Origin: Spiribacter salilacus
GTDB taxonomy: Bacteria > Pseudomonadota > Gammaproteobacteria > Nitrococcales > Nitrococcaceae
Assembly: GCF_009649225.1 (NCBI RefSeq)
Contig: NZ_WJPP01000006.1
Span: 1 to 64,000 of the forward strand
Direction of reading: 5' to 3'
Length of the DNA stretch: 64,000 nucleotides
Shown here: positions 8,138 through 64,000 of the stretch, in pieces
Layout of the letters: the number at the start of each line of letters is the position of its first letter
How positions within the stretch are numbered: the first letter of the stretch is position 1
The notes under the pieces: generated by a model
The model's database searches: none
Seen by the model: the letters and a program-made list of their open reading frames with translations, nothing else
Told to the model about the DNA's origin: nothing
Program-made: the position numbers and the translations under genes

Positions 8138-8152
8138 TTCCCAGTCGCTAAG

Positions 8153-12592: not shown

Positions 12593-12598
12593 GGCCGC

Positions 12599-16885: not shown

Positions 16886-16889
16886 CGTT

Positions 16890-17680: not shown

Positions 17681-18240
17681 TCAAAATACAAACTCCGATT
17701 CCAAATCAAAGCTCAGCACCCCTGAAAATGACTGGCCAAGGCATGAAAACTGCAAACTGCTAAACGGATTAACAACCATGCTGCAGGCCAACGGCCCTGA
17801 GAGATTAAACCCCGGTTGCCAGAGCGCTTCAGGCGGGCGAACCGTGTAAAAGCTATCTTGCTCTGCCGCTAGAAAACCCGCACGCCAAAATCGATCGGCA
17901 TCACGGCTTGGGATGTTGTCTAGCCATGCGCGCCCCATATCAAACGCAGAGCGGCCAGCTAGCGGCGGCCTTTCTGGCCGCGCATCGTCAGCAAGCGCCG
18001 CACCCAGGCCATACGCAATCAACGGAAACTCTCGGTCAACCCAGCCACCCATGATGTTGGCGCGATTATTAAGAGAAACTAAAAATACGCCCTGATTATT
18101 AGGCCCAGTTTGATATAAAAAGGCATGCCCACGCTGATCAATTAAGCCAAGACGCTCGCCAGAGCCCGCCGGCAATGTAATGGTGTTAGCAGACACCTTA
18201 ATGAGCCGATCTTCCATGCCCAGCAACTGCCCCCGTACGC
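17681..18240 (-). other. Conserved C-terminal domain of giant protein 1
   Basis: The last ~185 residues are non-repetitive: FLYQTGPNNQGVFLVSLNNR, YGLGAALADD, then LWQPGFNLSG, VVNPFSSLQF and a phenylalanine-ending tail (FDLESEFVF). The same blocks close the paralogue (50333-50935). Conservation at the extreme C-terminus suggests an export signal or outer-membrane/S-layer anchor (inference). Confidence 0.6.
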
Positions 18241-42200: not shown

Positions 42201-45200
42201 CTTGCTTCATCGCCGTTATTACCCAGCTCCCAGCGGGCCTCTGTAGTGGCAGCAATTCGGTTAAGCGCCATCACCGGCGCCACCGTGAGTGTGGTGGCAG
42301 CGCCGCTGTCTGTACCAACGGCCACATCAAGCGCTAGGGCCTGATTGGCGATATGGGCACTAATGCTGCCATCGGCCGTTGCCAACACTTGCGCATTACC
42401 GCCAATATCGAGCGTGCTATTTTCAATACGCGCAAGCGTTTTTAAGGTTTCAAGCCCGCCTAAATTGGTGCCAAGCAGGGTATCCACCACGTTTTCAAAA
42501 AGATTAGCGGGGCGATAGCCGATGGTATTAAACGCCAGCGTAATGCCAACGGATACCGAGGCCTGTAGTTGGCTATCCACCTGCGCAATGAGGGTGCTGG
42601 CGGCATCGGCTTTAACCAGCAGATTGCCCCCGGTGGTGATTGTGCTGCCGAGCAGGCTTGCCTCACTGCCGCCTAGCACGGTATTGGTTGCGATAATGAC
42701 ATTGGCAGCCACAGTATCGGCCGTGGCCTGGGCGCGATTATCCGCTACCAACAGCGCCTCATCGAGCGCTTGAATTTGCAGGGCATCATTAAGCGTTAAG
42801 GTGGCGGCCTTAACCTCGGCCAGGCTCTGGCCCCGCACATCATTACGCGCGATAACCGCACCGATGCTACTACCTCGGGCGGCCGGACCAAAGGCCGCTT
42901 CTACCTCATCAATAGCCGCTAAGGCGGCATCATTGAGCAGACCATCTACATCCACCGCGCGCCAGCGATCGGTATTGAGGAAGTTCTCAGCGGAAAGATC
43001 GACCGTGTCGCCGGCATTGCCTTCATATACATAAATGCCGCGCGGCGCGGCTAATACTTTGCGCCAGCGGCTGGTATCGCTAAAGTCTTCCCGATCTAGC
43101 CGTACATCCGTCTCGCTTGAGGTGGCAATAAACTCATAAATGGCGCCGGCTTCACCACCGCCTATAGCCCAGTCCAGCTGCACCCGTTCACCGGTGCTGA
43201 GCTCGGCGGGGCGATCCAGCAATCGGTACTCTGCCTCACGAATCCCAACTCGCTCGCCACCTTGCAGGGTAAGCTCATCGGTATCGGCCATTGCCTCATC
43301 CCGATAGAGCGCCCCTAAAGCGCGCAATGCCGATGCCATGGCACCCTCACTACCGGTGGTGGCACTCAGTGCCGTATCTGCGATGATGCTGGCGGTATCC
43401 TGGGCATTGACCAGCGCATCAGCCGCCGAGCCGCCCTTTTCATTCAGTGTTGCCAGCGTATCGGTGGCAATCATGTTGCTTGAAAGCACAAAACCTGCGG
43501 CCAGCGATCGCCCGCCTGATTGACCACCACCCCCGGCAGCTGTTTCATTACCCAACTGCGCGCTAATGGCCGAATCATTAAGCGCCTCAATACGTAACCC
43601 ACCGGTCAAATCCAGTGTTGAGTCGGTTACTTGTGCGCGCACAATCAGCGGATCGGCATCGCCAATATCGGTATTTGCCAGCGCCTCGGCCGTGGCGGTA
43701 AGCCAATCGGTGGCCTCCCAGCCCACGGTGTTAAAAGCTAAAGTGGCGTTAACCGCGTTGTCTCCCGCGCTCATAGCGCTGGTGTTTTTGGCCAGTAAAT
43801 CGGTGGTGTTTGTTGCTTTAACGTGAAGATCACCTACCGTGGTGGTGATAGTTGCCGAATTTACTTTCGCATCCACTTGGCCCAGCACCCGGTTGGTGGC
43901 CAAAATGCCACCGGCGGCCAGCCCGGCACCGCTGCCCTCACCCACGGTGGCCGCGCCATCAAGCTGGGCATGAATGCGTGCTGATTCATCAGCCTGAATG
44001 TTGGCTGAGCCCACCTCAAGAACGGCCCTGGCAACCTGAGCCAGGGCCTTACCCTGCACATCGTTACGCGCAATCAAACCGCCAATGGCACTTGCCGAGG
44101 CGGGTTTTGCGTTTTGATCGGCCGGATCACCCAGCGCACTTAAGGCAAAGTCGCTCACCCGCTTGCCATCGTTGGCCCCAGTAAACTCGACCCGCCAGCG
44201 ATCATCCTCCGCGCTAACCTCAGCGCCAACATCGGTTGCCGACAGCGCCGCGGCAATGGCCGACTGAATGCTGGCTGCCCCTGCGGTGCGCACTAGCTCT
44301 CGCGTTTCGAGGCCTTCGCCATTCACCGCAAAACTCAGCTTAAAGCGCTCGGTATCGGGCAGGCTAAACGCCCAGGCGGGGTTGGCTGGCGCCTCGCTAC
44401 CGGCCGGCGCCATGGTTTGAACAGCTACAACTGAGTCGGCAGGATCTGCGGCGGCATCATCCCCATCGGGTACCGCATTAAACGGCAGGCTGACACCGAG
44501 GTCGTCTAAAAACCCGATAGCCTGATCGATCACACCACGATAGTCTTCTAGGCCCTCTGGCGTGATATCGCCCAAGCGCACATCCGGCAAGCTTTGCTCC
44601 AATGTGCGTGTGTCATCCACCAGCTGGTTAACATAGCCGCTGAGTGATGGCGGCAGCCATTGACCATAAAGCGCCGCCAGATCAAGCTCGGCAAAACCGC
44701 CGGTGTCATCCGTACCACTGGTTAACCAATCCACTTGGTTGGCCAAGGTGGCAATTGGCAAGGCCTCGTTAAAACGCGTACCGAGCAAAGAGAAGTCGAT
44801 ACTGGGGTCACGCAGCTTCACGCTCGAGGGCAAAAACGCCACGGCTTGGAGCAAGTTGGCCACCGTGGCGGCGGGGTCATCCGCAATTTCGATAACCAGC
44901 GGGGTGCCTTCGCCTGGATCAGCCAAATTGATGGTACCCAGTTCAAAGCTCTGCTCGGCAAAATCCCCATCAATGAGGCGCTCAAGCGGGGTATCCGCCA
45001 ATAGCGTTTTTAAATTCAGCGTTAGCGCATTGCCGGCGGCCTCGTCTGCCAGCTTAAATTCCACGGGCTTATCAAATAAGCGCATGGCAAGCTTAGGCGG
45101 CTCAAAGGTAATGGTCTCTGGCAAAAACGGCTCGGGCGTCCAAACGGTAGATTCCTCGCCTTCGATGTAAATCGAATACTCCACACCCGGCAAGGCGGCC

Positions 45201-48200
45201 TGAAAATCATTGGCAACCAGGGCGGCCAGTAGCTCGCTGGTTTTAAGCTCGTCCCAGCCAAAATCAATCTGTACGCCCCAGTTCACCGTTTCACCAGCAA
45301 ACTCGGTGCTGCCCAGTTGCTCACGCACCGTGTAGGCGGGAAGTTCCGGATCAGGCACCAGCAGCTCAAGATCAAGCCGCGGTGCAGCAAAACCGGCAAT
45401 CGCACCGGGCTGCAAAGACAACACCCCGTCTGCAAAGCCAGCCGCTGCGGGGTTAGTACCCGCCCCATCCAAAAAGGAGAGCACGCTGAGATCTTCCCAG
45501 CCTAGGTTAAACCGCAGGCCCAACTCATGCACCGCATCGCCAATCGGCAACGTTGCCAGCGTCATGGCCCGCTCAAGGTTGGGCATATCGCCACTTAAGA
45601 AATCAATGAGCGCGCCCAGCTGCCCATCAAGCCCAGCCGGCGCCTCGCCAGGCAGGCCACTGCTGGCTTGCACAACGCCATCGGCCAAAATCTGCGGGGC
45701 ATCGGTTGCTTTAACCACCAAATCGCCAGTTATTGAAACCACGCCATTGGTATCACGGATTTCGGCGATGGCCTCGCTGGCTACGCGGTTGGTGGCCAAC
45801 ACCAGGCCAGCCGCCACGCCATTGCCCGAGGCGGCGGCCGTGCTTTGTGTGTTGGCGTTGATGGTTGCCGTGGTTGCTGCCGTGATTTCCGCATCACCGC
45901 CCACGGTGATTTCAGCGCCGGTAACCCGCGCGGTAGCCGATAAGGGCACCGTGCTTTGTGGGCTACCACCCAGCAAAACACCCAACCCACTGGTCAGTAA
46001 ATTGCCCGCCTGATGCCCGATACTATTAAACGCCAGCATTAGCCCTGCGGCACTACCGCTGGCATCTAGTGCTAGGGTGTTATCCGCATCAACCTGCCCA
46101 TCTGCGGTGCTGCTGATCAGCAAATCACCATCAATAGTCAGGCTGCCACCCTGCAGCTCGGCCTGCGCCGACCCGAGCAGGCGATTCGAAGCAATAGCAC
46201 CGCTTGCCGCAATGCCGCTGGCACCAGAGCCTTCTGCTGATGCGCTGATGCTGCCGCTGAGAACCGCGTTAATGCGCTGATTTTGCTTTGCGGTGATGGT
46301 GGCATTGCCACTCAGCGTGATCGCCGCATCTTTGGCCTGCGCAACCACGGTAGTGTTGATGTCGTTACGTGCCAGCACGGCACCGACGGCAACGCCACCG
46401 CCGGCCGCCAGCTGCACCTGGGCATCTATCGATGCGAGATCTTCAGCCTGTAATGTCAGGCTAGCGGCAGGGTTGGCAGCGGCGGTGTTGACCTGCCCAC
46501 CAATCACTACTGCTTGTGTATCCGCCTCAACTCGGTTGCCGGCCAAAATCAGCCCCACGCCAGCACCGGCCTCTGAGGCCGCGGCGCCATCAATCAGTGA
46601 GGTGATGCCGCTTTGCTCACCCATCCCTGCCTGGGCACTAACCGTAACATCACCACCGGCGGTAATTGTGCTGCGCTCAAGGCGGGTGAGCGTGAGATTT
46701 TTATCGACACTGCCCAGTGCCCCGCCAAGCAGAGCATCCTTGCCCAGCGATAAGATATTTTGCGCGGCCACGCCGAGTACATTAAATGCCAGCGTTAAGC
46801 CCACCGCGGCGCCATCGGCACTGGCACTAGCAGTATTGGTGGCCTTAATTTGTGCGTTTTGTGTGCTAGTTAGTTCGATGCTGCCGTTGGCGGTGAGTGT
46901 GCTGTCTAGCAGACGATTTTCAACATCCGCCAGAATGAGATTAGTGGCCATTAAACCGCTTAGGGCAACACCGTCAGTGGCCTCTACCACGCCGGTTAAA
47001 TCCGCAGTAATGCTGGCCTGCCCACTGGCTGTAAGCGAGATATCTCCACCCGCCTCCAGCGTAATCACTGAGAGCTGATTTTCAGCACCACCTCGCACAT
47101 CGTTACGCGCCACCACCGCGCCAGCGCCCACGGGGCCGCCGGCGCCGGCGCTTAAATCAATGGAGGCAGTCACCGTTATGGCATCGCTACTCGTTAACGT
47201 GGCCTGCCCACCAGACTTCAGCGTGCTGCGCTCTAGCTGCAAGCGCGCGCGGCTGCTGATCAGATTGCTTGCCAGAACCACGCCGGCAGCAACGCCAGCG
47301 TCTGCTGCAGTAACTAGCGAGCTAAGGGTGCTCGTCAGACTTTGCTGGCTGGCAGCGCCCACCTGCAGATTGCCATCGGCCTCTAGCTCAGAATTTCGCA
47401 CAATCACCCGCGCCTGCAGTGGCACCTCGGTGCCCAGCTCACTGCCAATCAGGGCATCGAGACTGCCGGCTAGCAGGTTCGGCGCGCTCCAGCCCATCAC
47501 GTTAAAGGCAAGCACGCCACTTACGGATGCCTGCCCCCCTTGGGCCTCTGATTCGGTGGTTGCGCTCAGTTCCGCCGCATTACGCGCATCAACCACCAAA
47601 TCGCCCGATGCCTTAAGGCTGCTATCGCTAATCGTTACGCCCACCGAGCCACGGAGCTGATTGACTGCGGCGATGCCGCTAAAACCGGTAGCCGTGGCCT
47701 CATCATCTGTGCCCGGCTGAACGCCATTAAGGCTGGCTGCAATAACCGCCGCATTGCGCGCTAAGATGCGCATATCGCTATTGGCGTTGAGCTGCGCGTT
47801 AGCGATGCTAATGGTTACATCGTGATTAAGGTCATTGCGTGCAATCAGCACCCCGCGGCCTGCGGTGGCGTTGGCCTGAATTTCGGCGGCATCGGAGGCC
47901 ACCACAATCATCTCACCACCGATGTTATGGGTCACATCGGCGTCTAAATTAAGACTTACGGCCACATTCACATTGCCCAAGTTGCTACTGAGCAACAGCC
48001 CAAACCCGGGGTCATCCGCGCCATCATCCACAACCAGTGAGGTGCTTAACTGCGGGGCCGAGATGGCCTCAATGCGTAAATTGTCCGCCACCGTAAAGCG
48101 CGTGTTGGTGATGCCAACCTGCACCTCAAAGGCCTTGGCGGCATCGGCATCAGGCCGGCCCAATAAAGTGTCTGCGCCCAGTGCCCATAGCGAATCGGCC

Positions 48201-50066: not shown

Positions 50067-50279
50067 TTATTCTGAATCGAGCTTATCAAGTAGTTCAAGG
50101 CCGCGTTTAACATCGCCTGATGCCGCCAGCGTTCGGAAACGAATTTCGCTGTCAAACTCAGCCAGTGTCTGCGTAGACATTTCTTCGATGAGCTTATTGA
50201 CGCTCATCTTTTTACGACGAGCTAGCGCCTTCAAACGGCTGTGTTTGTCATCGGGTAGTCGGATGGTTAACGTGGCCAT
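50067..50279 (-). CDS. Ribbon-helix-helix (CopG/HicB-antitoxin-like) DNA-binding protein
   Basis: A 70-residue protein starting MATLTIRLPDD, with the RHH beta-strand (ATLTIRLP), helix A (KHSRLKALARRKK) and helix B (SVNKLIEEMSTQTLAEF). The C-terminal tail RFRTLAASGDVKRGLELLDKL is typical of antitoxins of the HicB/CopG-like group. I start at the ATG at 50279, preceded by AGAGG nine bases upstream; the frame extends to a TTG at 50312 without support. No toxin gene lies beside it: both neighbours are giant genes. It is therefore an orphan antitoxin or, more likely here, a local regulator. An inverted repeat lies in its own promoter spacer. RHH proteins bind as dimers to such short palindromes. 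Confidence 0.85.
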   Translation of the reverse strand: MATLTIRLPDDKHSRLKALARRKKMSVNKLIEEMSTQTLAEFDSEIRFRTLAASGDVKRGLELLDKLDSE

Positions 50280-50332: not shown

Positions 50333-50935
50333 TCAGAGTGTCGGCGTAGCAATCAGATCAAAATCCAGCAGATCGGGCAGGGTTTGCCCGAGGCTCCAGA
50401 ATTGTAAGCTACCGTAGTGGTTAACCACCAAGCTGCCGGTGCCTAGGCCCCAGAGGTTATAGCCAGGCTGCCAGAGATCACCCGGTAAACGCATGGTCAG
50501 CAGGCTATCTCGCGCGCCACTTCCCACAAGGGTCTGTGACTCACGATCACCCCACATGCTTTCACGCCATTCCGAAAGGAAGCTAGAGCGCGACATGCGA
50601 TCACGCTCAAGCATGCCCTGACCAAACCATGAGCCTGCTCGGCTATCAAGCAACAGTGAGTTGTTAGGGCCTGCCGCATCCTCTGAAAGCGCCGCCCCAA
50701 GCCCGTATGAGCGAAGCAGTATCTCCCGGTCTAGCCATGGTGCTAGCCCGGCGCGATTACCTACCGAAATCAAGAACACGCCCTGGTTTTGCGGGCCACT
50801 TTGATAGAGGAAGCCGTTGCCATCTCTATCGATTAGGCTCAGCCGATCACCAAATCCAGCGGGTAGGCGAATTGAGTTTGCAGAAACTTTAATCAGCTCA
50901 CTTTCTAAATCAAGCAACTGCCCACGCACACCGGG
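50333..50935 (-). other. Conserved C-terminal domain of giant protein 2
   Basis: About 200 residues from GQLLDLESELIKVSAN to the end match the end of giant protein 1: FLYQSGPQNQGVFLISVGNR, YGLGAALSED, LWQPGYNLWG and VVNHYGSLQFW. A stretch rich in Arg/Ser/Trp (FLSEWRESMWGDRES) is inserted relative to the other copy. Shared ends with unlike middles point to a common export or anchoring signal. Confidence 0.6.
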
Positions 50936-53900
50936 CGCTGAGCCGGTAACGGTATGCGGCAGTGCAGAGAGCGTTAACACACCGGCCTGAACGTTCACAC
51001 CGATATTGCCCGATGCGCTCATCACCCGATGCCCACCGGCATCAAGCCGCACTTCTCCGCCGGTGGTTAACTGGCCAAGCACCATCGGCGCCGCTGTGGA
51101 GCGCAAGTTAATGAGCCCGCCACCAGAGCGAATCTCACCATCCGCCTGCATTTGAATGATGCTGGCGTTTAGGTTAACTGCACGTGCATTCAACGAGCCG
51201 CCCAAGTCAATCGTTCCGCGGGCCCGCAAGTCGGCATTGCCACCCAGCGTGATATCCGCTGTGCTGGTAATCGCCCCACCGCTTGTTGCGGTTAAGCCCT
51301 GAGCGCGCACCGTGCCGCTGAGCGTCATGGCGCCGGTAGAAGTTAGGCTAACTGCTCCATCGGCATTAATGCCGTTGGCCACCAAATCGCCGCTCATATT
51401 CACCGATACAAGACCACCGGCCTCGGTAATCTCCAGGTCGCCAAAGCGGTGATCATTCTCCAGTGTGATGGGTGAGCCGGCCGCACCAAAACGCGCCGTG
51501 CCGGTCACATCCAGTACGGCATTGCCACCGTCATCAATCTCGCCGGTAGCGCTTAGGTCAAAAAGCCCTCCGATGGAGTTATCAGCGGCCAGCACGGCCG
51601 CGCCATCCACGCTAAGCACCGCATCGCCCGTGGTGGTGATGTTAAACAGGCTCGCTTCAAGCTGGTCACCATTTTGATCACCCAAATCAGCACTCGCGCT
51701 CGATAGTGTGAGCTGCTCATCAATGATCATCTGCGCACCGGCCACATTGGTGATCATGCCATTGGCGCTTACTTCGGCCTCAGGCACCGCCACGTTACCC
51801 AGCTGCAGGGTATTCACGTCATTTACGCGCAGCGACTCGGCGGCTAGCACGTTAAATGCACCCCCAAAGTCGTTACCGTTATCTAAGGTGATGACGAACA
51901 ACGTTTGATTAGTTGCCTGCGCGGTCAGTGTGGTTTGACCGGTAATGCTCAGGCTCGTTACACCACCATCGTCTTGATCGGTAATCTCCCCGCGGGAGAT
52001 CAGCTCAAGCGCACCCATGGTGTTCTCACCCACAAATAGGGTGTCGTCAACATGAGTCAGCTTAACTAGCCCATCACTGGTGATCGTAAAGGTACCGGCT
52101 TTTAGGCTGGCGTTGGCTTGGCCGCCCAGGTCCATGCTGGCTGCTTCTAGCGTGGCATTGCCGATGACATCGATATCGGCATCATCCGTGTTCGTCAGCG
52201 CACCGGATAGGCTGAGATCAAAACTCAAGGCTGACACATCGGCCAACTCCACCGCGCCGGATGCCGCAATCTGTACCTCTTCACCGGCAATTTCAAGCGC
52301 ACCAGCAAACTCGTTCAAGTTGCTGGTTAGCATAATGTTCAGGGGATCCTCATCGCGCTCCGCCACCAGCTTGCTCGTGCCACCCACACTTAAGTTGCCG
52401 CCATCACGGGTGCCAATGGTACCCGCCACGTCTAGGTCTAAGTTGCCAGTGATAGAACTGGCGCCTGAGAACTCCAGGGCCCGATCAAGCTCAAGGGTGA
52501 CATTACCACCCGTCACCACTTGCAGCGCACCAAAGGAGACATTGTTATCGGCGCCCAGGGTCAGATCAGAGTTATCACCAATCTGCAGGGTGGCTACCTC
52601 GGCCACGTTGATGTCGACGTCCGCCTCGGCCGAAATACCACCCGCACTGTTAAGCGTGAGGTTGCGGGAGGCATCAACATTGCCCAGGCGGATATTACCG
52701 CTATTGGTAATTAAGGTGGCATCGCGCGATTGGGTAAAGGTAACAATACCGCCTACTGCGTGACCGTTATCTAGCAGAATGTCTGACTCGGTATCGGTTT
52801 CGAGCGTTAGCGCGCCGGTGATGGTAAGTGTGGCTGCATCAGATGCCTCCGCATCACCGTCGGTGATATTTCCGGTTGAGGTCAGATCCAGCGAGCCGAT
52901 GACACTGGCATTGCTCAACAGCGTGCTGCTGTTTTCGTTAATGGTGACATCGCCATCGGTGGTCAGGCGCAGGCTGCCAAAGTTGACCGTGCCATCGCCG
53001 CCAACGGTAATATCTCCGCTATTGCCGGCCTGGAACCAGGCTTCACCGCCAATCGAGAAGACTTCATCTGATTCTGTGCCAACCGTAATCGCATCGTCTT
53101 CACTATTCAGGTTGTCAGCTTTAATGCTGGCATCCCCAGTGACCGTAACGCTGGCATTCGCTGCACTGGTAATTACGCCATCGGCGCGCAGGATCAGCGA
53201 GGCCGCCGTGTTGGTGCCGACGATCTTGGCATCATTATTTTGCGTGTGATTAATTTCAACGGCCCCATCCGAGGTGAACGTCACCTGTTTGGTGGTAAAC
53301 GAGGGGTTATTACCCAGTCGAATGCTGTCTGCCGTCAGATCCGTGAGCCCGCCTACCGACACGCCATTGGCCGATTGAGTCAGCGCCCCATTCACGTGAA
53401 TGGTGAAATCACCGGCGGTGTCCACATCATCCAGCGCCGTATCGATGCTGTTGACGATATGAATGCTATTCGTTGTGCCGGTATTTTGTGCCGACACCGC
53501 TTGGGTAAGCTCGTTATCGGCGTGGTCAAGCGTAATGGCGGCACCGTCTGTTGCAAAGCGGGCCACGGTTAGAGCCGTGCCTTCAGCCTCTTCGGCCTGT
53601 ACCAAGGCGCCCGTTTGGGTAATGGCGCCAGTGGCGATAAGCGTTAATGCCCCCGAACCCACATTGGAGGCCGCGAGCGCCAGTGCACCAGTTTGCGTAA
53701 AGGCCACGGCATCAGTGCCGGTGTTATTCAGCGCCACCGTGCCGGTGACGGCATTATTGGTAGCGGTAAGATTAATGGCCGCGGCTTCGGCATCAAACAC
53801 CGCATTGCCACCCACCACAAACCGCGTATCCGTAGCCTGATCAATCAAGCCGCTGGTGTTGACCGTGAGATCACCGGTGATATCGATGTTGCCCAGCATG

Positions 53901-56900
53901 ATGCCGGCATCGTCATCGTCATCGTCATCGTGCAGATTCACATGGGTGGCGTCTGTAATTGTGACGACGCCATCGAGACGGTGCGCGTTGTCGAGAAGCA
54001 CATCACCATCTCCACCATTCACTTCAAAGGTGGCCGCCCTGGTGACAGACAGCGTGGCGGCATCGCCATCGGTAATAGTGTCTTGCGCGGTTAGATCCAG
54101 ATCACCCGTAATTGCGCTATTGCCGCTGAAGGTGATGCCGGCGTCCGTATCTACCAAGGTAACGTTATCCGCACTCACCCGGAGGGTGGCGGAGGTAAAG
54201 TCGTCGCTACCGGTGCCCAAGGTAATGTCATTGCCCGTGGCGGTCAGATCGGCCAGGCCAGTGACATCAATATCGGTACCGGTTGCCTGATTGATGTTGT
54301 CGGCTGCTGTTACGTTCAGGTCGCGGCCGATGGCCATGGCGCCCAGCGTGATGCCACTATCGGTATCGTTCAACACCACATCGTAGGCCGCCGTCACCGT
54401 GATCACGCCATCAAGATGATTGGCGTTATCAAGCAGGATGTTGCCGGTGCTGGAAATCACGTTGAAGGTGGCTGCGCCATCAATCGACAGCGTCGCGTTA
54501 TCACCATCGGTCATGGTGTCTTGCGCGGTTAGATCCAGATCACCCGTAATTACGCTATTGCCGCTGAAGGTGATGCCGGCATCCGTATCTACCAAAGTGA
54601 CGTTATCCGCACTCATCCGCAGGGTGGCGGAGGTAAAGTCATCGCTACTGCCGGTGCCCAAGGTGATGTCATAGTCCGTGGCGGTCAGATCGGCCAGGCC
54701 AGTGACATCGATGCTGGTGCCATTTGCCTGATCGATGTTGCCGTCAGCCGTTACGGTCAGGTTGCGGCCAATGTCCATAGCGCCCAGCGTGATGCCACTA
54801 TCGGTATCCTTGAGCACCACATCGCGGGCCGCCGTTACCGTGATCACGTCATCAAGATGGTTGGCGTTATCGAGTAGGATATCGCCCGTCTCGGAGACCA
54901 CATTAAAGGTGGCGGCGCCTGCAACGGATAGCGTGGCAGCCGTATCGTCAGTAATCGTGTTTTGCGCGGTTAAGTTCAACGCACCGGTGATATCACTATC
55001 GCCGCTGAAGGTGATGCCGGCATCCGTATCCACTACGGTAACGTCTGCCGCGTTCACCCGCAGGGTACCTGAGGTAAAGGCATCGCTGCCGGTGCCCAAG
55101 GTAATGTTATTGCCCGTGGTGGTCAGATCGGCAAGGCCGGTGATATCGATGGTGGTATCCGCTGCCTGGGTAATATCACCCACCGCCACAACGCTAAGAT
55201 CGCCCGTCAGGTCAATGGCATTGAGCTCAAGGTTCCCCGTGCCTGAATTCAGCAGCAGATCGCGCGCACTGCCATCCGCCGAGCCAATGGCATTCAGGGT
55301 CATGGCGCCACCGCTCACTAGCTCGGTGTCGCGAGACAGCTCAAAGGTGGTGTCCGCTACGCCCACGCTGAGCTGACCGGTTGCTTCAAGGCGCTGGCTG
55401 GCAAAGCCAGAGAGGCGGTCAATCTCGGCTGTGGTCAGGGTTAGGGTATCCGCCTGCTCTGTAGCCACATCCACCGCCATATCGCGGTTGGCCGTGGCGG
55501 CCGTCACTGCAAGTGATCCGCTACTAGTAGAATTAAGCGCCGCATCAACCACCAGCGTATCGGTGGTGAGATCGACATTGCCCTGCACCGTCACGGCCTT
55601 GTCAAGGCTGACTGAAGCGGCGTTATCGATGGTTAAGTCCTGCAGGAGATTATCCGCGCCCAGCACCGCATTCAGAGTAACCGCGCCGCCCTCGGCACTG
55701 CCGCTAAGGTCATAGTCAATCACGAAGTCTTCCGCGGTGTTGCCATCACCAGTGAGCAATTCAGCCGCATTGATGGTGACATCACCCGCCTCGCCGCTGC
55801 TGGCCTGCAGCGTGAGCAGGCCATCCGTGAAGCGCACATCCTGCGCGCCATTAATCGTCAGCGAACCGCCATCATGTAGCGTCACGCCCTTGGCAAAGTT
55901 CACATTACCAGTGGCGTTAATGGTGACATCACCGGCCACCTCCAGCGCTTCGTTAAAGGTGACATCCTCTGCCCCGTCAATCTCAAGCCCTTCAAGGCGG
56001 TCTGTAGTTGGGCTGGTGCCAGTGCCCGCATCAATCACCGAGTGGAACACGGCATCACCGCCGGCCAGCTCTAGGCGCAGGGTGGCCAGATCGCTGTCAC
56101 CGTTGCTGGCCAGATAGAATGGAGCCTGGCCCTCGCTGAGCTGATCAGCTGCTCGGCCCAACACAATATCAGCGGTGTTATCCGTGACCTTCAGGGTCAG
56201 CGCATCGACTGCGCGCAGGGAGTCATCAATGGTGATGCCGGCCGCATCACTGGCGGTGACGGTGCCATCCAACACGGCGGTGTTACCTGAGCCGACCAGC
56301 ACAAAGCTACCGGCAATCAAATCACCCTCCAGGCGGCTGGTATCGGCATCCACCGTGAAGGCGCGATCACCAGCATCAATGCTACCGGTCATATCCAGCC
56401 CATCGGTCAGGGCGAAGTTTGAACCGCCATCACCCCGCAGCACCACAACCAGCTGCTCAGAATCGGTATTGGCGGATTTGAGCGTGGCTAGCTGCACGTT
56501 GTTATCTGCATTCAGCGTGAGATGGCTGCCGCCCTGGAGTTCAACGTCGCCGCTGCTGAGCTCACCCGACTGATGGATCACCAAATCCACGGCCTGACCG
56601 TTCTCTAGGCTGAGACCACTGGCTTGAGTATTGAGTGTGGCGTTTTCTGAGAGCTTAACGCTCAAATTCTGTGCGGTGATGGTGCCGCCGGCATCAATAG
56701 ACTGACCGCTTAGACGGATGTCTGAATCGGCGCGACCAAAGTCTCCAGCCAACATAACTTTGCCATTCAGGCTCTCAAGGTCTAGCCCCTGAGCATCACC
56801 AAGCGGCAACTCCAGCACAAAAATATCGCCCGTTGCTTTTGAGGTGAGCGTGGCAAGACTACCCTCTCCAAAGCTTGGATCGTCCGATGGCAAGCTGATG

Positions 56901-59900
56901 ACGTAATCGCCCTGCACCGCGTTGCCATCGCTGCCTTCGAGGTCAAGCAGGGCATTGGCGGCGTTTTCAGTGGCGTTGTAATCAAAGGTTCCGTCTGCCG
57001 TGGCCACATTCAGGCCAGACTGGCCAGAGCCTTGTGCCCAGTCATCCTGACGATCGCTACTACCAGACTTGAGCTTGCCATCATTAATTTTGGCGTTGGC
57101 GGCAATGATGTGATTGTCAGCGCCAGCGGTGCCGGTAATCAGGCTAACAGCACCCCGTGTATTAATCTGAACCTCGGAGAGCAGCTTATCGACATCGTCC
57201 CGACCAGCTTCTACGGCGGCCAGCGCAATATCGCCCAGGTTGCTGACGATAATTCGGTTGCCGATGGTCTGCCCACTGTCATCATCACGCCCATCGGCAT
57301 CGATCCAGACATCGTGCAGCGTCAGATTACCGCGCGCATTAAGAATAACATCGCCACCACCGCTGCCCAGGCGCTGGACCTCCAGGTCGGTTGCCTCACG
57401 CACTTCCACGGTGCCACCGGCTGAATAGGCGTCGAGCGTGTCGACTCGGGTATTGACCATCACATCGAAGCCGGCATCGACTATCAGATCTCGCGTCTGC
57501 AGCAGACTGCCCACGTTCATCTGAATTTCATCGGCTACCAGGTTGATGCTATCAGTGGCTTTCAGCACGCCGCTGGCAAAATCCAACACCGACGGTGTGC
57601 CATCGGTGCCGCGCACATCCACCCGCAACGATTCCACGGGCGAGAAGCCCTCAAGCGCCAGGAAATTGCCCTTGAGGGTTAAGTCATCCTGGGTGGCAAT
57701 GGCGATGTTGGCATCGGCTCTGAGATCAAAGACGTCGACTGACAAGGCTTGCGTGTTGAGGGTGATATCACCGGTGGTACGCGTGCTCGTAACTGCATTG
57801 CCACCCCCGTCTACGATGCCGTTGCCATCACCATCAACATCCTGCACTTCAACTGTCGCTAGGCCATTGGCCCGCATCGACAGCGTATCAATCTGATTGT
57901 CGCCACCGTCGCTGTGCGTAATGTCGCCAATGACCAGCACATCGCGATCAGACATCAGTTCAACCCGAGACTCGGCGGCGATATCCGCATTGATGGTCAG
58001 CGTCTCACCAAAGGTGCTCTTGTCCAGATCCGTTGGATCACCATGCACCGCGTGGATGATCACGGTTTCCGCGCTGAGATTCTCAGTAAAGGCCGTTTCA
58101 CCATCAAACTGGAACCCCGCGGCGCGGTACTCGAGCGTGCCGTCTGCTGTGGCGTACTGGCGGTGGAGATCGACTACGCCCAGCGTGGCGATAAAGCTCA
58201 AGTCTTTATAGCCGGCAATCGAGTCATCAGAGTTGCTCGACCAGCCGGTGGGCTCGTCCACGGTAATATTGCCGGTTTCAGACTCCAGCCGGATCGTGCC
58301 GTTATTCACGCTCACGCTGCTGGCGTCATCCAGATAAAGATCGTCCACGGTGTTAAGCGTCAGCGTGCCGCTGCCGGCCAGGCTCAAGTCGCCGATGCTC
58401 AGCGTTTCATCCGCGCTCAGGTGGCGAAGGGTGAGATCACCGCCGGTGCTGGTGGCCGTGGTCAGGCGGTTGGCGCTAATGGCCAGACCTTCAATGCCGG
58501 TGGCAGCTTCAAGCACTAGCTCATCCGCGCTGAGCTGTGCCACATCCAGCCCGCCGAGGCCCAGGATATCGCCAGCGGTCGTGCGCAGCGTGGCGGTGCC
58601 GACGCGATCGACGATGTTGGCCGCATCGAGGGTAATATCACGGGTGTCGCCGGCATTCGTGGTCTCACCGTCCCCTCGAGCTTCGGCCACCCCGCTCAGC
58701 TGCACATCCTCCAGGCGAATGCCGGCATCCGAGTCAACCGTTAGATCACCACCGATCACGCGCACTTCATCAAGCGTCAAAACGCCTGAGCCCTGATCCA
58801 GCGTGAGGTCACCAAACTCAATCTTGGCATCCAACCGACCAACCAGGGTGCGCAGATCGGCATCACCCACCAAATCCAGATCAAGATGATCGACCTCAAT
58901 GGCCGTCGAAGTTGCGCTCTCGTGGCTGAGCGTGCCGGCGGCGGTGAGCGCGACGTACCCGGTGCTCACCAGATCACGCACCACAATGCCGGCCTGCGTC
59001 GCCACGGCGTTCGATGAGAACTCCGTCTTCACCTCAATCTCGAGACGGTTATCGGCCGTGTCACCGCTAAGGTTCAGATCCAGCAGGCTCAGATCGCCCC
59101 AGTTGGTCAGGCTGATGTCGGAATCCGTGGCCTCGGCGTTCAGATTCAGGGCACCGCGATGGCTGATCTGGAGATCGCCGCCCTCGCCCTTGAGCGTAAG
59201 GGTATCCAGCCCATTCAGATCCAAGGCGGTCTGCCCATCCACATCGACGATCAGATGATCGACCGCCAGATACGCCTTGTGTTGAGCGGTTTCACCGGCC
59301 GTCCGGGAGAGGGTCTGACCCGCGGCGAGTGCCAGGGTGTCGGAGTTGGCCTCGCCCAAGCCCTCGAGGACCGCGGTGCTCACCAGCGTCAGGTTTACGC
59401 CCGCCTCAAAGTCCAGATCGCTGCCGAGGACCGTACCACGCAGTGTCACATCACCCGTGGCGGCCACGGCGACCTCACCGGCCGGGCCTTGTGCGGTCAA
59501 AACAGACGTGGCCGCCAGGTCAACATCCCCACCCGCTGAAATATCCAGGCTTGTTCCAGCGGTAAGCTCGGCGATGGTATTGATGGTGGTAATGCCATCA
59601 TCGGCCGTGACGTTATGACCCTGCGCTGTGACCGTGCCGGCAGCGTCGATCTCCAGCGTGCCCGAGGCCTCGACCACCGCGGTAACGGTGACATCCGCGC
59701 CACTTTCAATCCGAATGTTCTGCGCATCGAGGGCATTGCCGGCGAAGGTGGCGATGGTTTGGGTTTCGTTTCCAACGCCGGCCACCTGCTCAGTCTGCGC
59801 GGAGAGGCTATAGGTGGGCGTGCGCTTCCAGACGTTTTCCGTAATCTCGCTGACGGTCGCGACTTCCTGCGACTTCAGCCCAAACTCGTTAACCAACCCG

Positions 59901-62900
59901 GTTACATCCGATGGCTGGTACACCATCTGATAATCCAACTTCAGCCGCTGATCTCTTAAGTCAACATCGGTGGATTGCCATTCGTAATCGTAGTCGTAGA
60001 AGATTTCCTTGGCGGTAGTGACATCCTTCTTACTGATCTTAGACGCCGTTAAAGTCGATCCGTCAATATCGTATTGAACACGATATTGACCGCCTTCGGC
60101 GAAACTCATAAAGCTGTTGTTCTTGCTGACAGCAGTGTCTCTGGAAAGCGATAAGTCAATGGCCTGTGCAATCCAGTCGGCCCGAGATTGAGTTTGGGTT
60201 CCGCCGGAATAGCTACCATCGCCGTATGCACCAAATATTCCGGCAATGTAGTTATCTCTTATGCCGCTATCCGACAGATAATAATTATAGATATCTACAT
60301 CATAGGAACGGAGCGCTACAGCGCCAGCAATGCCTATTTCCCAATCACCCTCCACGTTGTATGGGCGCGTGAGGGTATCACTATAATCTTTATATTTATT
60401 AGTGTCGTTTTTCCCGTCGACAAACAACATGAGCGGAGCACGGTAATCGGGGTTGTATGCGTATTTCGCGACCACGTGGCGGTACTGAGTAACATCGACT
60501 CTAGAACTTGAAGTTACTCCACTCCAAACGTCGTCTCCTCCTTGGTATAACCAAAAGATGGCCTTCCCGTCAATAATTTCTATAGACCGAGTGTTACCGG
60601 CGTCATCACTGACAAACTCAAAAATCTTTCCGTCGGGAGAATTATATATCCAAGCTTCAAGGGTAAACGTTTGAGCGAACGTATCACTCCCTAAACCTAC
60701 ATTACCCGAGGTTTTAACGACCGGAGAAATACTGACGGTCACATCGTCTTTTTGCTCAGCGCCAATCAAATCACCACTCTGGGTGCCATCACTGCGGTAA
60801 ACGGAATAACTCCCGTCACCCAACTCGCTCAAGATCTCTCGCGACCATTTAGACTGATCGCTTGAAGAAACTTCAAAGCTCTGGCTGGCACTTCCGTCAA
60901 AAAATCCGTATTTTGCCGCGAGCTGATCGCCGATCTCACGTTCACCCTGGCGCGTCAAGCTTGCCGTGTAATCCTCAAGCGCATCCAAGTAATCCTGATC
61001 CGCCTTAATCAGGTTAGTAAATCCGCCACCACCGACGTAGTCGGCTGCCATCTCCGCCTCCTCGGGGCCAGATGTCGCTGCATAGTTCTCCGCCCATGCA
61101 GGGGTGTAGCTCAACTCGAGCGTCTTTTCGCTATCAAGCAGCTCAAAGGACCGCTTGCCGGTGTTATCCACATAACCCACTTCCCAGTAGGCTTCATCAG
61201 CCCCCGTCTCCACCACCCGGTAGCTTCGGTTCGTTGGATATAGCGCTTCAGTCCAGCGAGATTCCTCCTGCGTGTATGTCACCTGAGCCGTGTCGAAGAC
61301 GGTACCGACCCACTCACCGAGTTCATCAAGGTCCGCTGTTGGATCACCAAACACTGGCAGATAGCCCAGCTCCTTGGCCACCGCAATTTGTTGGGCATCC
61401 GTCAAATCATCCCATCCAGCGTCAACTGCCGGTTCGCTCAGCTCAAAGCTCTCCCAATCGATATTGGCATTGTTGTAATCCGTACCCTCGGTAAAGGTGG
61501 TCTGAACATCGGAATCATCATCGACGTTCACGTACTCCACCGTCACGCCGAAATCGGCGGCAGTTTTCCATTCTCCGTCGTTGGTTCCCTCGCGGGTGTC
61601 GTCATCCACCAGATACTGCGGCGCGCCTTGGGAGACGATGCGCTGGATGTCTTCTTCAGCGCCCTGCGGTAGCTGGATGTAGAAATCCTGCCAGCCAGAC
61701 TCAGAAAGGTTCATTACGCGTGTGCTGTTGCCCGACCAACTTGGCGTGGTGGCCTGCGTGGTGGCCGTACCGTCGATGACGGTAACCTTCTCGGCATTGC
61801 TGTAGCTAAAGTCAAACAGCGGCTTGTAGCCCAGGTGATTCAATACCGCCTGGCGCTGGGCGGTGTCGAGCTGGTCGAAGCGTTTATAATCCGGATCGTT
61901 AGGATCGGTTGTCGAGACAGCAGTTGCGGCACGGTCAGGCAATAGCGTGGTACCCGCATTGCTCCAGTCGATCTCATCATTGGAGTAATCGACCCCCTCA
62001 TCCGACTCACCAATCCCCTCAACAAAGAACTCTTTAAAGTCAGTCCCGTTGTGGTAACCAATCTGCTCAAGGGTGGCGTCTAGGCGAACAAATTCCTCAC
62101 CCACAACAACGCGTTTCTGTGCCACTACTTCAAGCTGCGTGGTCGTACTCCAGGTCACCTTGGGAATGACGATGGTGCCGTCCAGGGTGTCTTGATAGCC
62201 ACTGACCTCGGGCTCATACACGGTTCGATCAACCAGAGTCGGCACGCGAATCAGCTCTGAGCTCTGGCCAGAGACATCGGCGCGCAGCTTTACCGCACCG
62301 CTTGCTAAAACATCCAGATTGCCCGCCGCAGTGGCACGCCCCACCTCTAGCACTCGCACTGTGCCGTTGTTGTTCAAATCAATGCCAGATTTCAGCTCGA
62401 TATTCCCACTCGAATCGAGCGCACCGGTAATCACGATCTGATCAACCGCATGGACCTGCAGCTCAGCGCTTGCGCCCGTGTCAGTCACTTCGCCATCGCC
62501 CTGAATGGTCACCACCTCACCAGCCAGATGCAGCAAACCGCCGGCGGACAAATCGGCTGATCCGGCCACGAATAGCTCAGCGTCAGCCGTGGCGCGCAAT
62601 GTCGAGCCGGTATCCCGCGCCTCCAAGGCTGCGCCAGCCAGTAAGTTGACCTGCCCGCTGGCATCAAGCTCAATCTGGTTATTGGCGAAAATCGCACCCG
62701 CATTAAGCACCGTCACCGTATCGCCATCGATATCCGTGGCGCCATTACCGATGGAGATGTCAGCAGTGTTCGACGTGAGGCTTATGCTGTCTACCCAATC
62801 AACAAGGTTTGTTTCATCGTCATATTGAGCACCCAAATGCGTCCGCAGCATCAATGACTTTTCAGCCACGGCCGTAATGCTGCCGCCCGCGCCAACTACC

Positions 62901-64000
62901 GGCGAAGAATCGATCACAATCGAGTCGCCACGCAGAGTAAGATCACTCAAAGCCGATACCGTGCCACCCGCCAGCACGAGCTGGCCGGCACTGCCCAAAT
63001 CAAGCGCATCCGCTGTGATTAGCGCGTCATTCACTGTAAAGTTGCTACCCACATCGATGCGCACCTGATCAACGGCATCCAGCACCGCTCGGCTATCGGT
63101 CAACGCATTAGGCTCTTCACCGCTATAGCTAATGACTGGGCCACCCAACGTGAATGTGTTGCTCACATCCACGGCCATTTCGGCAGCTCGGCCTTCACCA
63201 ATCCATTGGGCTGAACCTACGTTTACATTGAACTCGCTATCTGTGTCGGTCGCCTCAAGCGTGGCATTACCGCCAAGCATTAAGTGCCCATCTGCCTCAA
63301 GGCCGATCAGTGAAGCCGCCTCGATGGTCACGCTGTCGGCGATTGTGGCGCTGTCATCAACCTGATCCTGTGTGGCGAAATTGCCCAGCGTCAGATCGGC
63401 GCCTGACTTCAGGCGGAAGGCCTCGACATCGGCCACCACATTTTCAAGGGTGAGATCGGCGCCGGCCTCAATCAGATACCGCCCACCGATAAACTCACCA
63501 GAAATGGTGAAGTCGTTCACCGCCTGCCAGTGTGACAAGGCCGTTGGGTCTGCCTGACGCACTTCGGCCACACCGGCAAAAGCGATCTCATCGCCCTCTA
63601 GGCTCACGCTTTCATCGGCCACAACGTAACCGTCGCTCGTTACCGTCAGCAAGCCATCGGTGGCCAGCGTAATCTGGCCAACACCCAGCGTGTCGCCATC
63701 GATCTTGGTATCCACCAATAAGTCTTCGGAGGACCGGAGGATTACCCCCTTGGCCGCATCAAACTGATTCTGGCCCAAGGTGAGCTGATCAGAGCGCAGC
63801 ACCTTAAATTCGACGGCGCCTGCCGATTGAATCGCTGCGGGATCACCCGTCTCCGCTTTTTCCTGCACCACAATGGTGTTCTCAGCGCCTAAGCGAACGC
63901 CTAAGCGAATCAGACTGTCTGCGTCGGTGGTCTTTAGAAGTGCCGCGCCGCCCACCTCAATCGTATCGGCTGCCGCATCGATCAATCCGGTGGAATGAAG
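50333..64000 (-). CDS. Second giant repetitive surface/adhesin-like protein (5' end outside window)
   Basis: More than 4,550 codons are open to the right edge without a stop; codons before the nominal TTG at 63985 are also open, so the start lies outside. It is homologous to the C-terminal ~4,500 residues of the neighbouring giant. Shared parts are the beta-helix-like GDLTL/ADNIxQ repeats, the globular block (59770-62255) with LEVVAQKRVVVGEE, and a shared C-terminal domain ending LWQPGYNLWGLGTGSL and FDLIATPTL. Differences are a LamG-like insertion, three 438-bp tandem repeats and a poly-Asp run. No cysteine was seen in the visible part. It ends 4 bp upstream of the -35 box of the RHH promoter. 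Probably another substrate of the same export genes, unless its own set lies upstream. Confidence 0.92.
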   Translation of the reverse strand, partial: LHSTGLIDAAADTIEVGGAALLKTTDADSLIRLGVRLGAENTIVVQEKAETGDPAAIQSAGAVEFKVLRSDQLTLGQNQFDAAKGVILRSSEDLLVDTKIDGDTLGVGQITLATDGLLTVTSDGYVVADESVSLEGDEIAFAGVAEVRQADPTALSHWQAVNDFTISGEFIGGRYLIEAGADLTLENVVADVEAFRLKSGADLTLGNFATQDQVDDSATIADSVTIEAASLIGLEADGHLMLGGNATLEATDTDSEFNVNVGSAQWIGEGRAAEMAVDVSNTFTLGGPVISYSGEEPNALTDSRAVLDAVDQVRIDVGSNFTVNDALITADALDLGSAGQLVLAGGTVSALSDLTLRGDSIVIDSSPVVGAGGSITAVAEKSLMLRTHLGAQYDDETNLVDWVDSISLTSNTADISIGNGATDIDGDTVTVLNAGAIFANNQIELDASGQVNLLAGAALEARDTGSTLRATADAELFVAGSADLSAGGLLHLAGEVVTIQGDGEVTDTGASAELQVHAVDQIVITGALDSSGNIELKSGIDLNNNGTVRVLEVGRATAAGNLDVLASGAVKLRADVSGQSSELIRVPTLVDRTVYEPEVSGYQDTLDGTIVIPKVTWSTTTQLEVVAQKRVVVGEEFVRLDATLEQIGYHNGTDFKEFFVEGIGESDEGVDYSNDEIDWSNAGTTLLPDRAATAVSTTDPNDPDYKRFDQLDTAQRQAVLNHLGYKPLFDFSYSNAEKVTVIDGTATTQATTPSWSGNSTRVMNLSESGWQDFYIQLPQGAEEDIQRIVSQGAPQYLVDDDTREGTNDGEWKTAADFGVTVEYVNVDDDSDVQTTFTEGTDYNNANIDWESFELSEPAVDAGWDDLTDAQQIAVAKELGYLPVFGDPTADLDELGEWVGTVFDTAQVTYTQEESRWTEALYPTNRSYRVVETGADEAYWEVGYVDNTGKRSFELLDSEKTLELSYTPAWAENYAATSGPEEAEMAADYVGGGGFTNLIKADQDYLDALEDYTASLTRQGEREIGDQLAAKYGFFDGSASQSFEVSSSDQSKWSREILSELGDGSYSVYRSDGTQSGDLIGAEQKDDVTVSISPVVKTSGNVGLGSDTFAQTFTLEAWIYNSPDGKIFEFVSDDAGNTRSIEIIDGKAIFWLYQGGDDVWSGVTSSSRVDVTQYRHVVAKYAYNPDYRAPLMLFVDGKNDTNKYKDYSDTLTRPYNVEGDWEIGIAGAVALRSYDVDIYNYYLSDSGIRDNYIAGIFGAYGDGSYSGGTQTQSRADWIAQAIDLSLSRDTAVSKNNSFMSFAEGGQYRVQYDIDGSTLTASKISKKDVTTAKEIFYDYDYEWQSTDVDLRDQRLKLDYQMVYQPSDVTGLVNEFGLKSQEVATVSEITENVWKRTPTYSLSAQTEQVAGVGNETQTIATFAGNALDAQNIRIESGADVTVTAVVEASGTLEIDAAGTVTAQGHNVTADDGITTINTIAELTAGTSLDISAGGDVDLAATSVLTAQGPAGEVAVAATGDVTLRGTVLGSDLDFEAGVNLTLVSTAVLEGLGEANSDTLALAAGQTLSRTAGETAQHKAYLAVDHLIVDVDGQTALDLNGLDTLTLKGEGGDLQISHRGALNLNAEATDSDISLTNWGDLSLLDLNLSGDTADNRLEIEVKTEFSSNAVATQAGIVVRDLVSTGYVALTAAGTLSHESATSTAIEVDHLDLDLVGDADLRTLVGRLDAKIEFGDLTLDQGSGVLTLDEVRVIGGDLTVDSDAGIRLEDVQLSGVAEARGDGETTNAGDTRDITLDAANIVDRVGTATLRTTAGDILGLGGLDVAQLSADELVLEAATGIEGLAISANRLTTATSTGGDLTLRHLSADETLSIGDLSLAGSGTLTLNTVDDLYLDDASSVSVNNGTIRLESETGNITVDEPTGWSSNSDDSIAGYKDLSFIATLGVVDLHRQYATADGTLEYRAAGFQFDGETAFTENLSAETVIIHAVHGDPTDLDKSTFGETLTINADIAAESRVELMSDRDVLVIGDITHSDGGDNQIDTLSMRANGLATVEVQDVDGDGNGIVDGGGNAVTSTRTTGDITLNTQALSVDVFDLRADANIAIATQDDLTLKGNFLALEGFSPVESLRVDVRGTDGTPSVLDFASGVLKATDSINLVADEIQMNVGSLLQTRDLIVDAGFDVMVNTRVDTLDAYSAGGTVEVREATDLEVQRLGSGGGDVILNARGNLTLHDVWIDADGRDDDSGQTIGNRIIVSNLGDIALAAVEAGRDDVDKLLSEVQINTRGAVSLITGTAGADNHIIAANAKINDGKLKSGSSDRQDDWAQGSGQSGLNVATADGTFDYNATENAANALLDLEGSDGNAVQGDYVISLPSDDPSFGEGSLATLTSKATGDIFVLELPLGDAQGLDLESLNGKVMLAGDFGRADSDIRLSGQSIDAGGTITAQNLSVKLSENATLNTQASGLSLENGQAVDLVIHQSGELSSGDVELQGGSHLTLNADNNVQLATLKSANTDSEQLVVVLRGDGGSNFALTDGLDMTGSIDAGDRAFTVDADTSRLEGDLIAGSFVLVGSGNTAVLDGTVTASDAAGITIDDSLRAVDALTLKVTDNTADIVLGRAADQLSEGQAPFYLASNGDSDLATLRLELAGGDAVFHSVIDAGTGTSPTTDRLEGLEIDGAEDVTFNEALEVAGDVTINATGNVNFAKGVTLHDGGSLTINGAQDVRFTDGLLTLQASSGEAGDVTINAAELLTGDGNTAEDFVIDYDLSGSAEGGAVTLNAVLGADNLLQDLTIDNAASVSLDKAVTVQGNVDLTTDTLVVDAALNSTSSGSLAVTAATANRDMAVDVATEQADTLTLTTAEIDRLSGFASQRLEATGQLSVGVADTTFELSRDTELVSGGAMTLNAIGSADGSARDLLLNSGTGNLELNAIDLTGDLSVVAVGDITQAADTTIDITGLADLTTTGNNITLGTGSDAFTSGTLRVNAADVTVVDTDAGITFSGDSDITGALNLTAQNTITDDTAATLSVAGAATFNVVSETGDILLDNANHLDDVITVTAARDVVLKDTDSGITLGAMDIGRNLTVTADGNIDQANGTSIDVTGLADLTATDYDITLGTGSSDDFTSATLRMSADNVTLVDTDAGITFSGNSVITGDLDLTAQDTMTDGDNATLSIDGAATFNVISSTGNILLDNANHLDGVITVTAAYDVVLNDTDSGITLGAMAIGRDLNVTAADNINQATGTDIDVTGLADLTATGNDITLGTGSDDFTSATLRVSADNVTLVDTDAGITFSGNSAITGDLDLTAQDTITDGDAATLSVTRAATFEVNGGDGDVLLDNAHRLDGVVTITDATHVNLHDDDDDDDAGIMLGNIDITGDLTVNTSGLIDQATDTRFVVGGNAVFDAEAAAINLTATNNAVTGTVALNNTGTDAVAFTQTGALALAASNVGSGALTLIATGAITQTGALVQAEEAEGTALTVARFATDGAAITLDHADNELTQAVSAQNTGTTNSIHIVNSIDTALDDVDTAGDFTIHVNGALTQSANGVSVGGLTDLTADSIRLGNNPSFTTKQVTFTSDGAVEINHTQNNDAKIVGTNTAASLILRADGVITSAANASVTVTGDASIKADNLNSEDDAITVGTESDEVFSIGGEAWFQAGNSGDITVGGDGTVNFGSLRLTTDGDVTINENSSTLLSNASVIGSLDLTSTGNITDGDAEASDAATLTITGALTLETDTESDILLDNGHAVGGIVTFTQSRDATLITNSGNIRLGNVDASRNLTLNSAGGISAEADVDINVAEVATLQIGDNSDLTLGADNNVSFGALQVVTGGNVTLELDRALEFSGASSITGNLDLDVAGTIGTRDGGNLSVGGTSKLVAERDEDPLNIMLTSNLNEFAGALEIAGEEVQIAASGAVELADVSALSFDLSLSGALTNTDDADIDVIGNATLEAASMDLGGQANASLKAGTFTITSDGLVKLTHVDDTLFVGENTMGALELISRGEITDQDDGGVTSLSITGQTTLTAQATNQTLFVITLDNGNDFGGAFNVLAAESLRVNDVNTLQLGNVAVPEAEVSANGMITNVAGAQMIIDEQLTLSSASADLGDQNGDQLEASLFNITTTGDAVLSVDGAAVLAADNSIGGLFDLSATGEIDDGGNAVLDVTGTARFGAAGSPITLENDHRFGDLEITEAGGLVSVNMSGDLVANGINADGAVSLTSTGAMTLSGTVRAQGLTATSGGAITSTADITLGGNADLRARGTIDLGGSLNARAVNLNASIIQMQADGEIRSGGGLINLRSTAAPMVLGQLTTGGEVRLDAGGHRVMSASGNIGVNVQAGVLTLSALPHTVTGSAPGVRGQLLDLESELIKVSANSIRLPAGFGDRLSLIDRDGNGFLYQSGPQNQGVFLISVGNRAGLAPWLDREILLRSYGLGAALSEDAAGPNNSLLLDSRAGSWFGQGMLERDRMSRSSFLSEWRESMWGDRESQTLVGSGARDSLLTMRLPGDLWQPGYNLWGLGTGSLVVNHYGSLQFWSLGQTLPDLLDFDLIATPTL
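53830..55150 (-). repeat. Three tandem ~438-bp repeats in giant gene 2
   Basis: The string CCGCTGAAGGTGATGCCGGC recurs starting at 54123, 54561 and 55002, i.e. 438 and 441 bp apart, within stretches that stay nearly identical over most of the unit. Each unit encodes about 146 residues with SGITLGAMxIGRxLxVTA, VTGLADLTATxxDITLGTG, VTLVDTDAGITFSGNS and DAATLSVxxAATF. Near identity at DNA level shows recent duplication or gene conversion. Confidence 0.75.
53906..53933 (-). repeat. Hexanucleotide microsatellite encoding poly-Asp
   Basis: The plus strand reads GCATCGTCATCGTCATCGTCATCG, i.e. about four units of ATCGTC, encoding a run of Asp (HDDDDDDDAGI). The matching place in the sister 438-bp repeats reads NDTDSGITL, so about four codons were added here. 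It is in frame and prone to slippage in steps of two codons. Confidence 0.7.
59770..62255 (-). other. Globular block with duplicated DY-IDW/LGY modules, giant protein 2
   Basis: Homologous to 27120-29250. The first module has VDYSNDEIDWSNAG (61965-62040) and AQRQAVLNHLGYKPLFDF (about 61810-61870). The second has DYNNANIDWESF (61455-61505) and AQQIAVAKELGYLPVF (about 61345-61400). The block ends with ITENVWKRTPTYSL. In this copy a LamG-like domain is inserted after the second module. Confidence 0.6.
60240..60700 (-). other. LamG/concanavalin-like lectin domain inserted in giant protein 2
   Basis: About 150 residues with the LamG-like jellyroll signature: FTLEAWIYNSPDGKIFEF, KAIFWLYQGGDDVW, YRHVVAKYAYNP, LMLFVDGKND, WEIGIAG. 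Giant protein 1 has no LamG-like sequence at this point. The DNA is distinctly more A+T-rich than its surroundings, suggesting acquisition from another source. Such domains usually bind glycans or proteins. Confidence 0.65.

Follow-up and report, generated by a model that had tools for sequence, protein, structure and literature searches.

The two adjacent giant genes of Spiribacter salilacus described here are homologous over most of their length, and comparison with related giants indicates that their N-terminal repeat arrays come from two lineages, the array of the first gene (g1) being similar to that of the giant in genome G075 and the array of the second gene (g2) to that of the giant in genome G466. 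Judging from alignments and trees, g1 and g2 are each other's closest relatives outside this array in the set examined, and a past exchange of modules in the pair is supported. The interpretation that we favor, and consider probable, is that of an old tandem LEPR-XLL pair in which one array was replaced as a block, served by a common exporter and forming long filaments with differing properties. The analysis was based on a window of 64,000 nucleotides (the whole stretch of DNA analyzed; G000:C15:1-64000) belonging to an assembly of 18 contigs that totals 2,235,242 bases, with a completeness of 99.99%. Together, g1 and g2 occupy at least 63.6 kb of this 2.24-Mb genome (about 3%). How proteins of more than 10,000 residues are built, exported, and diversified in bacteria is poorly known, and the pair suggests that module swapping can reshape bacterial proteins of very large size, which are probably located at the surface.

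Extent and homology of the two giant genes

The first giant gene (g1; 17681..49972, minus strand) is a complete open reading frame of 10,763 aa. The second (g2; 50333..64000 in the window and on to C15:81634, minus strand) has its C-terminal 4,555 codons in the window, and no stop codon was found in its frame there or over the 17.6 kb that follow in contig C15 (81,634 bp), so the protein comprises at least 10,433 aa, a lower bound given that the frame of 10,433 codons is still open at C15:81634. Both genes encode long repetitive proteins in one open frame. A global alignment of g1 and g2 is co-linear, with 9,494 aligned residues at 40.5% identity and nine gaps of at least 25 aa, and three blocks were recovered by BLASTP, namely g2 1371-5074 with g1 1945-5657 (43%, 2154 bits), g2 5226-6907 with g1 5657-7341 (39%, 871 bits), and g2 7210-10427 with g1 7537-10757 (33%, 1097 bits). 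Identity to g1 ranged from 33 to 60% in 200-residue windows of g2 residues 2201-6800, and the conserved core of g1 (residues 2900-6000; 31973..41275, minus strand) is 47.8% identical to g2. The two genes thus lie side by side in the same orientation as tandem paralogs, with homology along most of the sequence, and are mutual nearest relatives except within the N-terminal repeat array.

The first-pass annotation had described g2 as a homolog of the C-terminal part of g1 at an offset of about 32.7 kb. This observation is real and larger than first reported: the homology and the shared C-terminus stand, the offset equals the distance between both stop codons (50333-17681 = 32,652), and the alignment covers essentially the whole gene. 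Similarity at the level of generic low-complexity repeats only was not what the alignment showed. The common end, previously put at the last 185-200 residues, extends over ~370 aa (g1, 17681..18793; g2, 50333..51445; both minus strand) at 40% with an E value of 5e-74, and it gave no clear match in G075 or G466, its similarity to G075 being marginal. The copies differ in repeat number and by inserted domains, as had been proposed; these include an insertion of 152 aa in g2 relative to g1 (g2 5075-5225) and a g2-specific domain of ~230 aa (residues 6950-7179; 60098..60787, minus strand) that has no counterpart in g1, appears LamG-like by eye, and was not detected by Pfam. Separately, g2 residues ~8823-9225 (window about 53960-55168) consist of tandem 146-aa repeats whose identity at the DNA level reaches 83%; no younger duplication was seen in g2.

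Different ancestry of the N-terminal repeat arrays

The giants were compared by block alignments, and quartet tests were performed on 500-residue blocks, for which the giants of G075 (13,846 aa) and G466 (12,124 aa) served as outgroups; the four giants all have long branches, and alignable arrays occur in few taxa. The N-terminal repeat array of g1 (residues 524-2634; 42071..48403, minus strand) groups with G075. For g1 residues 601-2600, identity was 31.5% between g1 and g2, 36.6% between g1 and G075, and 43.8% between g2 and G466, while the corresponding values were 47.8, 43.2, and 43.8% for residues 2901-6000 and 39.1, 27.3, and 29.7% for residues 6001-10763. The quartets favored g1 with G075 and g2 with G466 in blocks 601-1100, 1101-1600, 1601-2100, and 2101-2600 by 21, 66, 102, and 41 lnL units, respectively, and g1 with g2 in 10 of the 11 blocks of 3101-8600 (8 to 49 units), block 3601-4100 showing no preference. 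The preference was weak in 2601-3100 and in most blocks past residue 8600, where strong support for g1 with g2 returned in 9601-10100 only. The cumulative site likelihood placed the switch between the two topologies at g1 residues ~2570-2900 (41273..42265, minus strand); the pair represents a clear case of a giant gene as a mosaic with a locatable breakpoint. For the N-terminus preceding the repeats, where G466 is unlike the other three, the quartet gave no clear topology.

The architecture of the arrays was analyzed with a profile of the ~280-residue unit. In g1 and G075, contiguous units of ~250 residues are followed by an insert of ~500-860 residues (~500 aa in g1) and two more units, and in G466 and in g2 together with the short contig C2 (see below) the units are spaced at ~355 residues with a linker and no insert. 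In the tree of the units, whose resolution is limited (8 of 28 branches starred), the units of g1 and G075 pair by position (g1 701 with G075 775, 1193 with 1302, 1958 with 2411, and 2369 with 2822), the last ones at 100/99. The pairs g2 1381 with G466 2534 (87/84) and C2 464 with G466 704 (92/85) have weaker support. Domain exchange in the history of the family, an idea already present in the first-pass annotation, agrees with a repeat array whose phylogeny differs from that of the rest of the gene.

Relatives and distribution of the core

When g1 residues 4190-4816 were used as the core block, none of the 22 further family genomes (13 from the same genus) had a copy, and, of 368 additional genomes sampled from the class, 5 gave matches. 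A GTDB-wide scan with a five-row alignment retrieved 42 loci from several phyla, among them Pseudomonadota, Planctomycetota, and Cyanobacteriota (a two-row alignment gave none), and no core relatives were found in viral contigs or plasmids. The maximum-likelihood tree of the core joined g1 and g2 at 100/100, followed by G075 at 99/95 and then by two Rhodospirillales MAGs, one of them being G466, the genome of locus L046. The core-block homologs L045, L057, and L080 contain 2, 1, and 9 stop codons inside the matched stretch, respectively, and are possibly decayed genes or the product of sequencing errors.

Exporter-like genes next to the giants

Downstream of g1, a run of six genes on the minus strand (8505-17588) encodes a SapC-family protein (16890..17588; PF07277), a TolC-like outer-membrane channel (15314..16915; PF02321), an HlyD/RND-type periplasmic adaptor (14443..15510), a long HlyD-type adaptor designated HlyD2 (12599..14446), an M50 peptidase-HlyD fusion with a HELGH motif (10442..12592), and a SecA-like ATPase of 645 aa in which the PGEGKT and DEAD motifs are kept (8505..10442). 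Based on their position, these genes probably constitute the exporter of the giants, and it is these exporter-like neighbors that point to a putative cell-surface location of both proteins. As in type I secretion, TolC-like and HlyD-like genes are situated directly downstream of the putative substrates. In contrast to the ABC transporter-HlyD-TolC arrangement of that system, a SecA-like ATPase, an M50-HlyD fusion, and SapC are encoded here and no ABC transporter was found within 8505-17588; the run is therefore not a type I system, since HlyD and TolC are accompanied by an ATPase of the SecA-like kind.

Homologs of the SecA-like, M50-HlyD, and HlyD2 proteins flank giants in G075, G466, G261, G493, and G476, and a SapC homolog is present in G075, G466, and G493, so that the conserved neighbors of the giants name a candidate exporter. 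The M50-HlyD protein was matched in 45 of 321 genomes of the class, the source genome included, and the operon proteins are nearer to those of G075 than to those of G466 (SapC, 76% vs 53%). In a literature search of incomplete coverage, we found no description of this six-gene set. The genome G075 bears a second LEPR-XLL protein of 3,177 aa inside the exporter gene run (L026:4804-14337), so two-substrate arrangements exist in more than one form.

LEPR-XLL starts and the N-terminus of g2

Exactly two matches to the LEPR-XLL model (NF012209, cut-off 17) were identified in the genome, one in g1 (49829..49894, minus strand; 35.5 bits) and the other at the end of contig C11 (C11:222-290, minus strand; 35.6 bits). 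Whether g2 also carries such a motif had been raised as a question; a second motif does exist, and contig ends suggest its assignment to g2. The N-terminus of g1, used as a query, also matched C2, a contig of 3,869 bp that is open throughout. Contigs C11 and C2 have ~85 bp in common with one mismatch, after which the sequences differ, and C2 does not overlap with C15, its end being just 68% identical at the protein level to the start of the g2 part on C15. The first repeat unit detected in C2 is paired in the unit tree with its first counterpart in the G466 giant, which is of the same type as g2. From these data we infer the contig order C11-C2-gap-C15, which would give g2 its LEPR-XLL start. 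Membership in NF012209 applies to g1, which lies above the cut-off, and for g2 it depends on this join. Like LEPR-XLL proteins in general, g1 and the C11 N-terminus match the model, which describes a motif of 24 residues, and the tandem arrangement and mosaic of g1 and g2 go beyond it. In the literature covered, the term LEPR-XLL was found in two papers, one of which mentions it in passing.

Upstream of the C11 start, genes encoding a response-regulator-like and a histidine-kinase-like protein are located, and in a genome of the same genus a LEPR-XLL start (L135 in G016) is likewise preceded by genes for a related regulator and kinase. LEPR-XLL starts cut by contig ends were observed in two other species of the genus (L135 in G016 and L136 in G019), one situated beside a two-component pair and one after an HlyD-like gene.

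Age and origin of the tandem pair

The four-fold sites of g1 and g2 match at 27-47%, against 33% expected at saturation, with an amino-acid identity of 26-50%. The longest exact DNA word common to both genes is 21 bp, and no aligned stretch of at least 100 bp exceeds 77% identity. Since the four-fold sites are near saturation and the longest match is this short, both the exchange and the duplication are old. Exchange between g1 and g2 as a present-day process, as the two-gene family had been pictured at first, is not supported by these values; the stretches of high nucleotide identity that mark ongoing recombination are missing between the copies, and recent gene conversion between them was rejected.

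In the scenario that we favor, g1 and g2 would be old tandem duplicates of a LEPR-XLL giant gene, and after or around the duplication recombination with another giant of the family would have exchanged the array of one copy in a single piece. The replaced array would most likely be that of g2, because the core tree and the neighboring operon proteins place the locus next to G075. Both proteins would leave the cell via their common ends through the neighboring SapC/TolC/HlyD/HlyD2/M50-HlyD/SecA-like system and be displayed as filaments of great length and mainly beta structure. Although built on a shared body, the two could differ in binding or spacing because of the swapped array and the small inserted domains.

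Clusters of LEPR-XLL giants on the same strand also occur in G493 (7,734 and 7,897 aa), in G476 (5,362 and 9,643 aa), and in G261, where a single contig bears several giants. In the G493 pair, identity amounts to 82-94% over the final ~1,400 aa, and a rise of four-fold identity to 63-78%, compared with 28% expected, is confined to the last ~1,200 aa; this region was therefore converted recently, which shows that local conversion occurs in tandem giant pairs. Between the copies in G476, identity is 22-30% up to residue 3,300 and 35-68% beyond it, and the clustered giants of G261 are likewise more alike at the C-terminus. Part-limited conversion as directly seen in G493, together with the C-terminal likeness in G476 and G261, gives some weight to the strongest competing explanation, to which we assign a minor but appreciable probability: the duplication would predate the split of G075 and G466, each of which kept one copy, and in the present genome conversion would have homogenized the C-terminal three quarters while the arrays kept their original ancestry. 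The array tree would then be accounted for without outside donors, but at the price of ~8,000 converted codons and of one copy lost in two lineages; moreover, the converted part of g1 and g2 would itself now be saturated, and the operon proteins side with G075.

The comparison with clustered giants provides a testable rule, with free N-terminal arrays and C-termini kept common in tandem pairs. A stricter rule, by which the giants of one genome would have C-termini in common that other genomes lack, fits G000, G261, and G493 and is false in general. In G484 and G483, the copies differ in their C-termini within the genome and are matched between the two genomes, and one C-terminal type is common to G129, G472, G473, G476, G483, and G484, with a HELGH-type motif in several members. 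As a tentative and broader proposal, LEPR-XLL giants might be substrates of an undescribed SecA-driven, TolC-type export pathway, the tandem copies diversifying by replacement of whole N-terminal arrays while conversion keeps the C-terminal side common, such that one exporter could serve changing surface fibers.

The proposal that g1 and g2 are alternative surface coats, expressed in turn by means of a switch, appears unlikely to us. The gap of 360 bp between the giants, which contains a weak promoter-like site and an RHH-like ORF of 70 aa (50070..50279, minus strand; weak HicB/CopG-type Pfam matches below the cut-off and no other close copy in the genome), would allow separate expression. However, the two promoter-like matches found are near the shuffled expectation (mean 0.7, sd 1.0), no switch element was seen in the gap or at the C11 start, nothing shows alternation, and joint production would be equally possible. 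Separate acquisition of g1 and g2 by horizontal transfer from different donors, with no duplication in this lineage, would fit the patchy distribution of the core in the class, its absence from the 22 other family genomes, and the occurrence of pieces of other LEPR-XLL giants in two congeneric species, but we consider it improbable given that the core tree unites g1 and g2 at full support to the exclusion of G075 and that both share a C-terminal end only marginally similar to G075. Finally, a mosaic signal produced by the alignment of non-orthologous repeat units, conceivable for the first part of the array, which is repetitive and differs in unit copy number, is the least probable explanation, since the effect persists in the last two units, which occupy corresponding positions in the four genes (lnL difference of 41 in block 2101-2600; last g1/G075 units at 100/99), and the architecture agrees, one type having contiguous ~250-aa units and an insert and the other ~355-aa units and a linker.

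Stalk repeats, precedent, and small modules

The domain DUF5649, classed as a stalk domain of fibrillar adhesins (PMC8286594), was detected in 8 stretches in g1 residues 5001-10000, 13 in g1 7765-10763, and 14 in the window part of g2; both giants thus share with fibrillar adhesins (PMC8286594) the stalk repeats, which are numerous in their C-terminal parts. No Pfam adhesive domain was matched at an E value of 0.01 in the scanned regions. The repeat unit was modeled from 11 sequences with a pLDDT of 81 and the core from 26 sequences with a pLDDT of 82; both predicted structures contain many beta strands, and neither had a PDB match at an E value of 0.001.

Tandem giants are already known; what is unusual about g1 and g2 is their scale and how clearly the module swap can be seen. 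The closest precedent is the giant1-5 gene cluster of Apilactobacillus kunkeei, in which N-terminal beta-solenoid domains were exchanged between lineages and other parts have another history (PMC12863079). By description, that cluster resembles g1 and g2 in the N-terminal exchange and in a shared kind of C-terminal end. In contrast, A. kunkeei is Gram-positive, with no transporter genes reported nearby (PMC12863079), whereas a putative six-gene exporter is adjacent here, and the g1 and g2 proteins exceed 10,000 aa, unlike the A. kunkeei giants.

A module of ~45 aa with the consensus GxxYRYxG...vDLxxxDYxDxxxW, which has no Pfam match, is scattered through the giants, with 7 copies in g1, 11 in g2, 2 in C2, 15 in G466, and 32 in G129.
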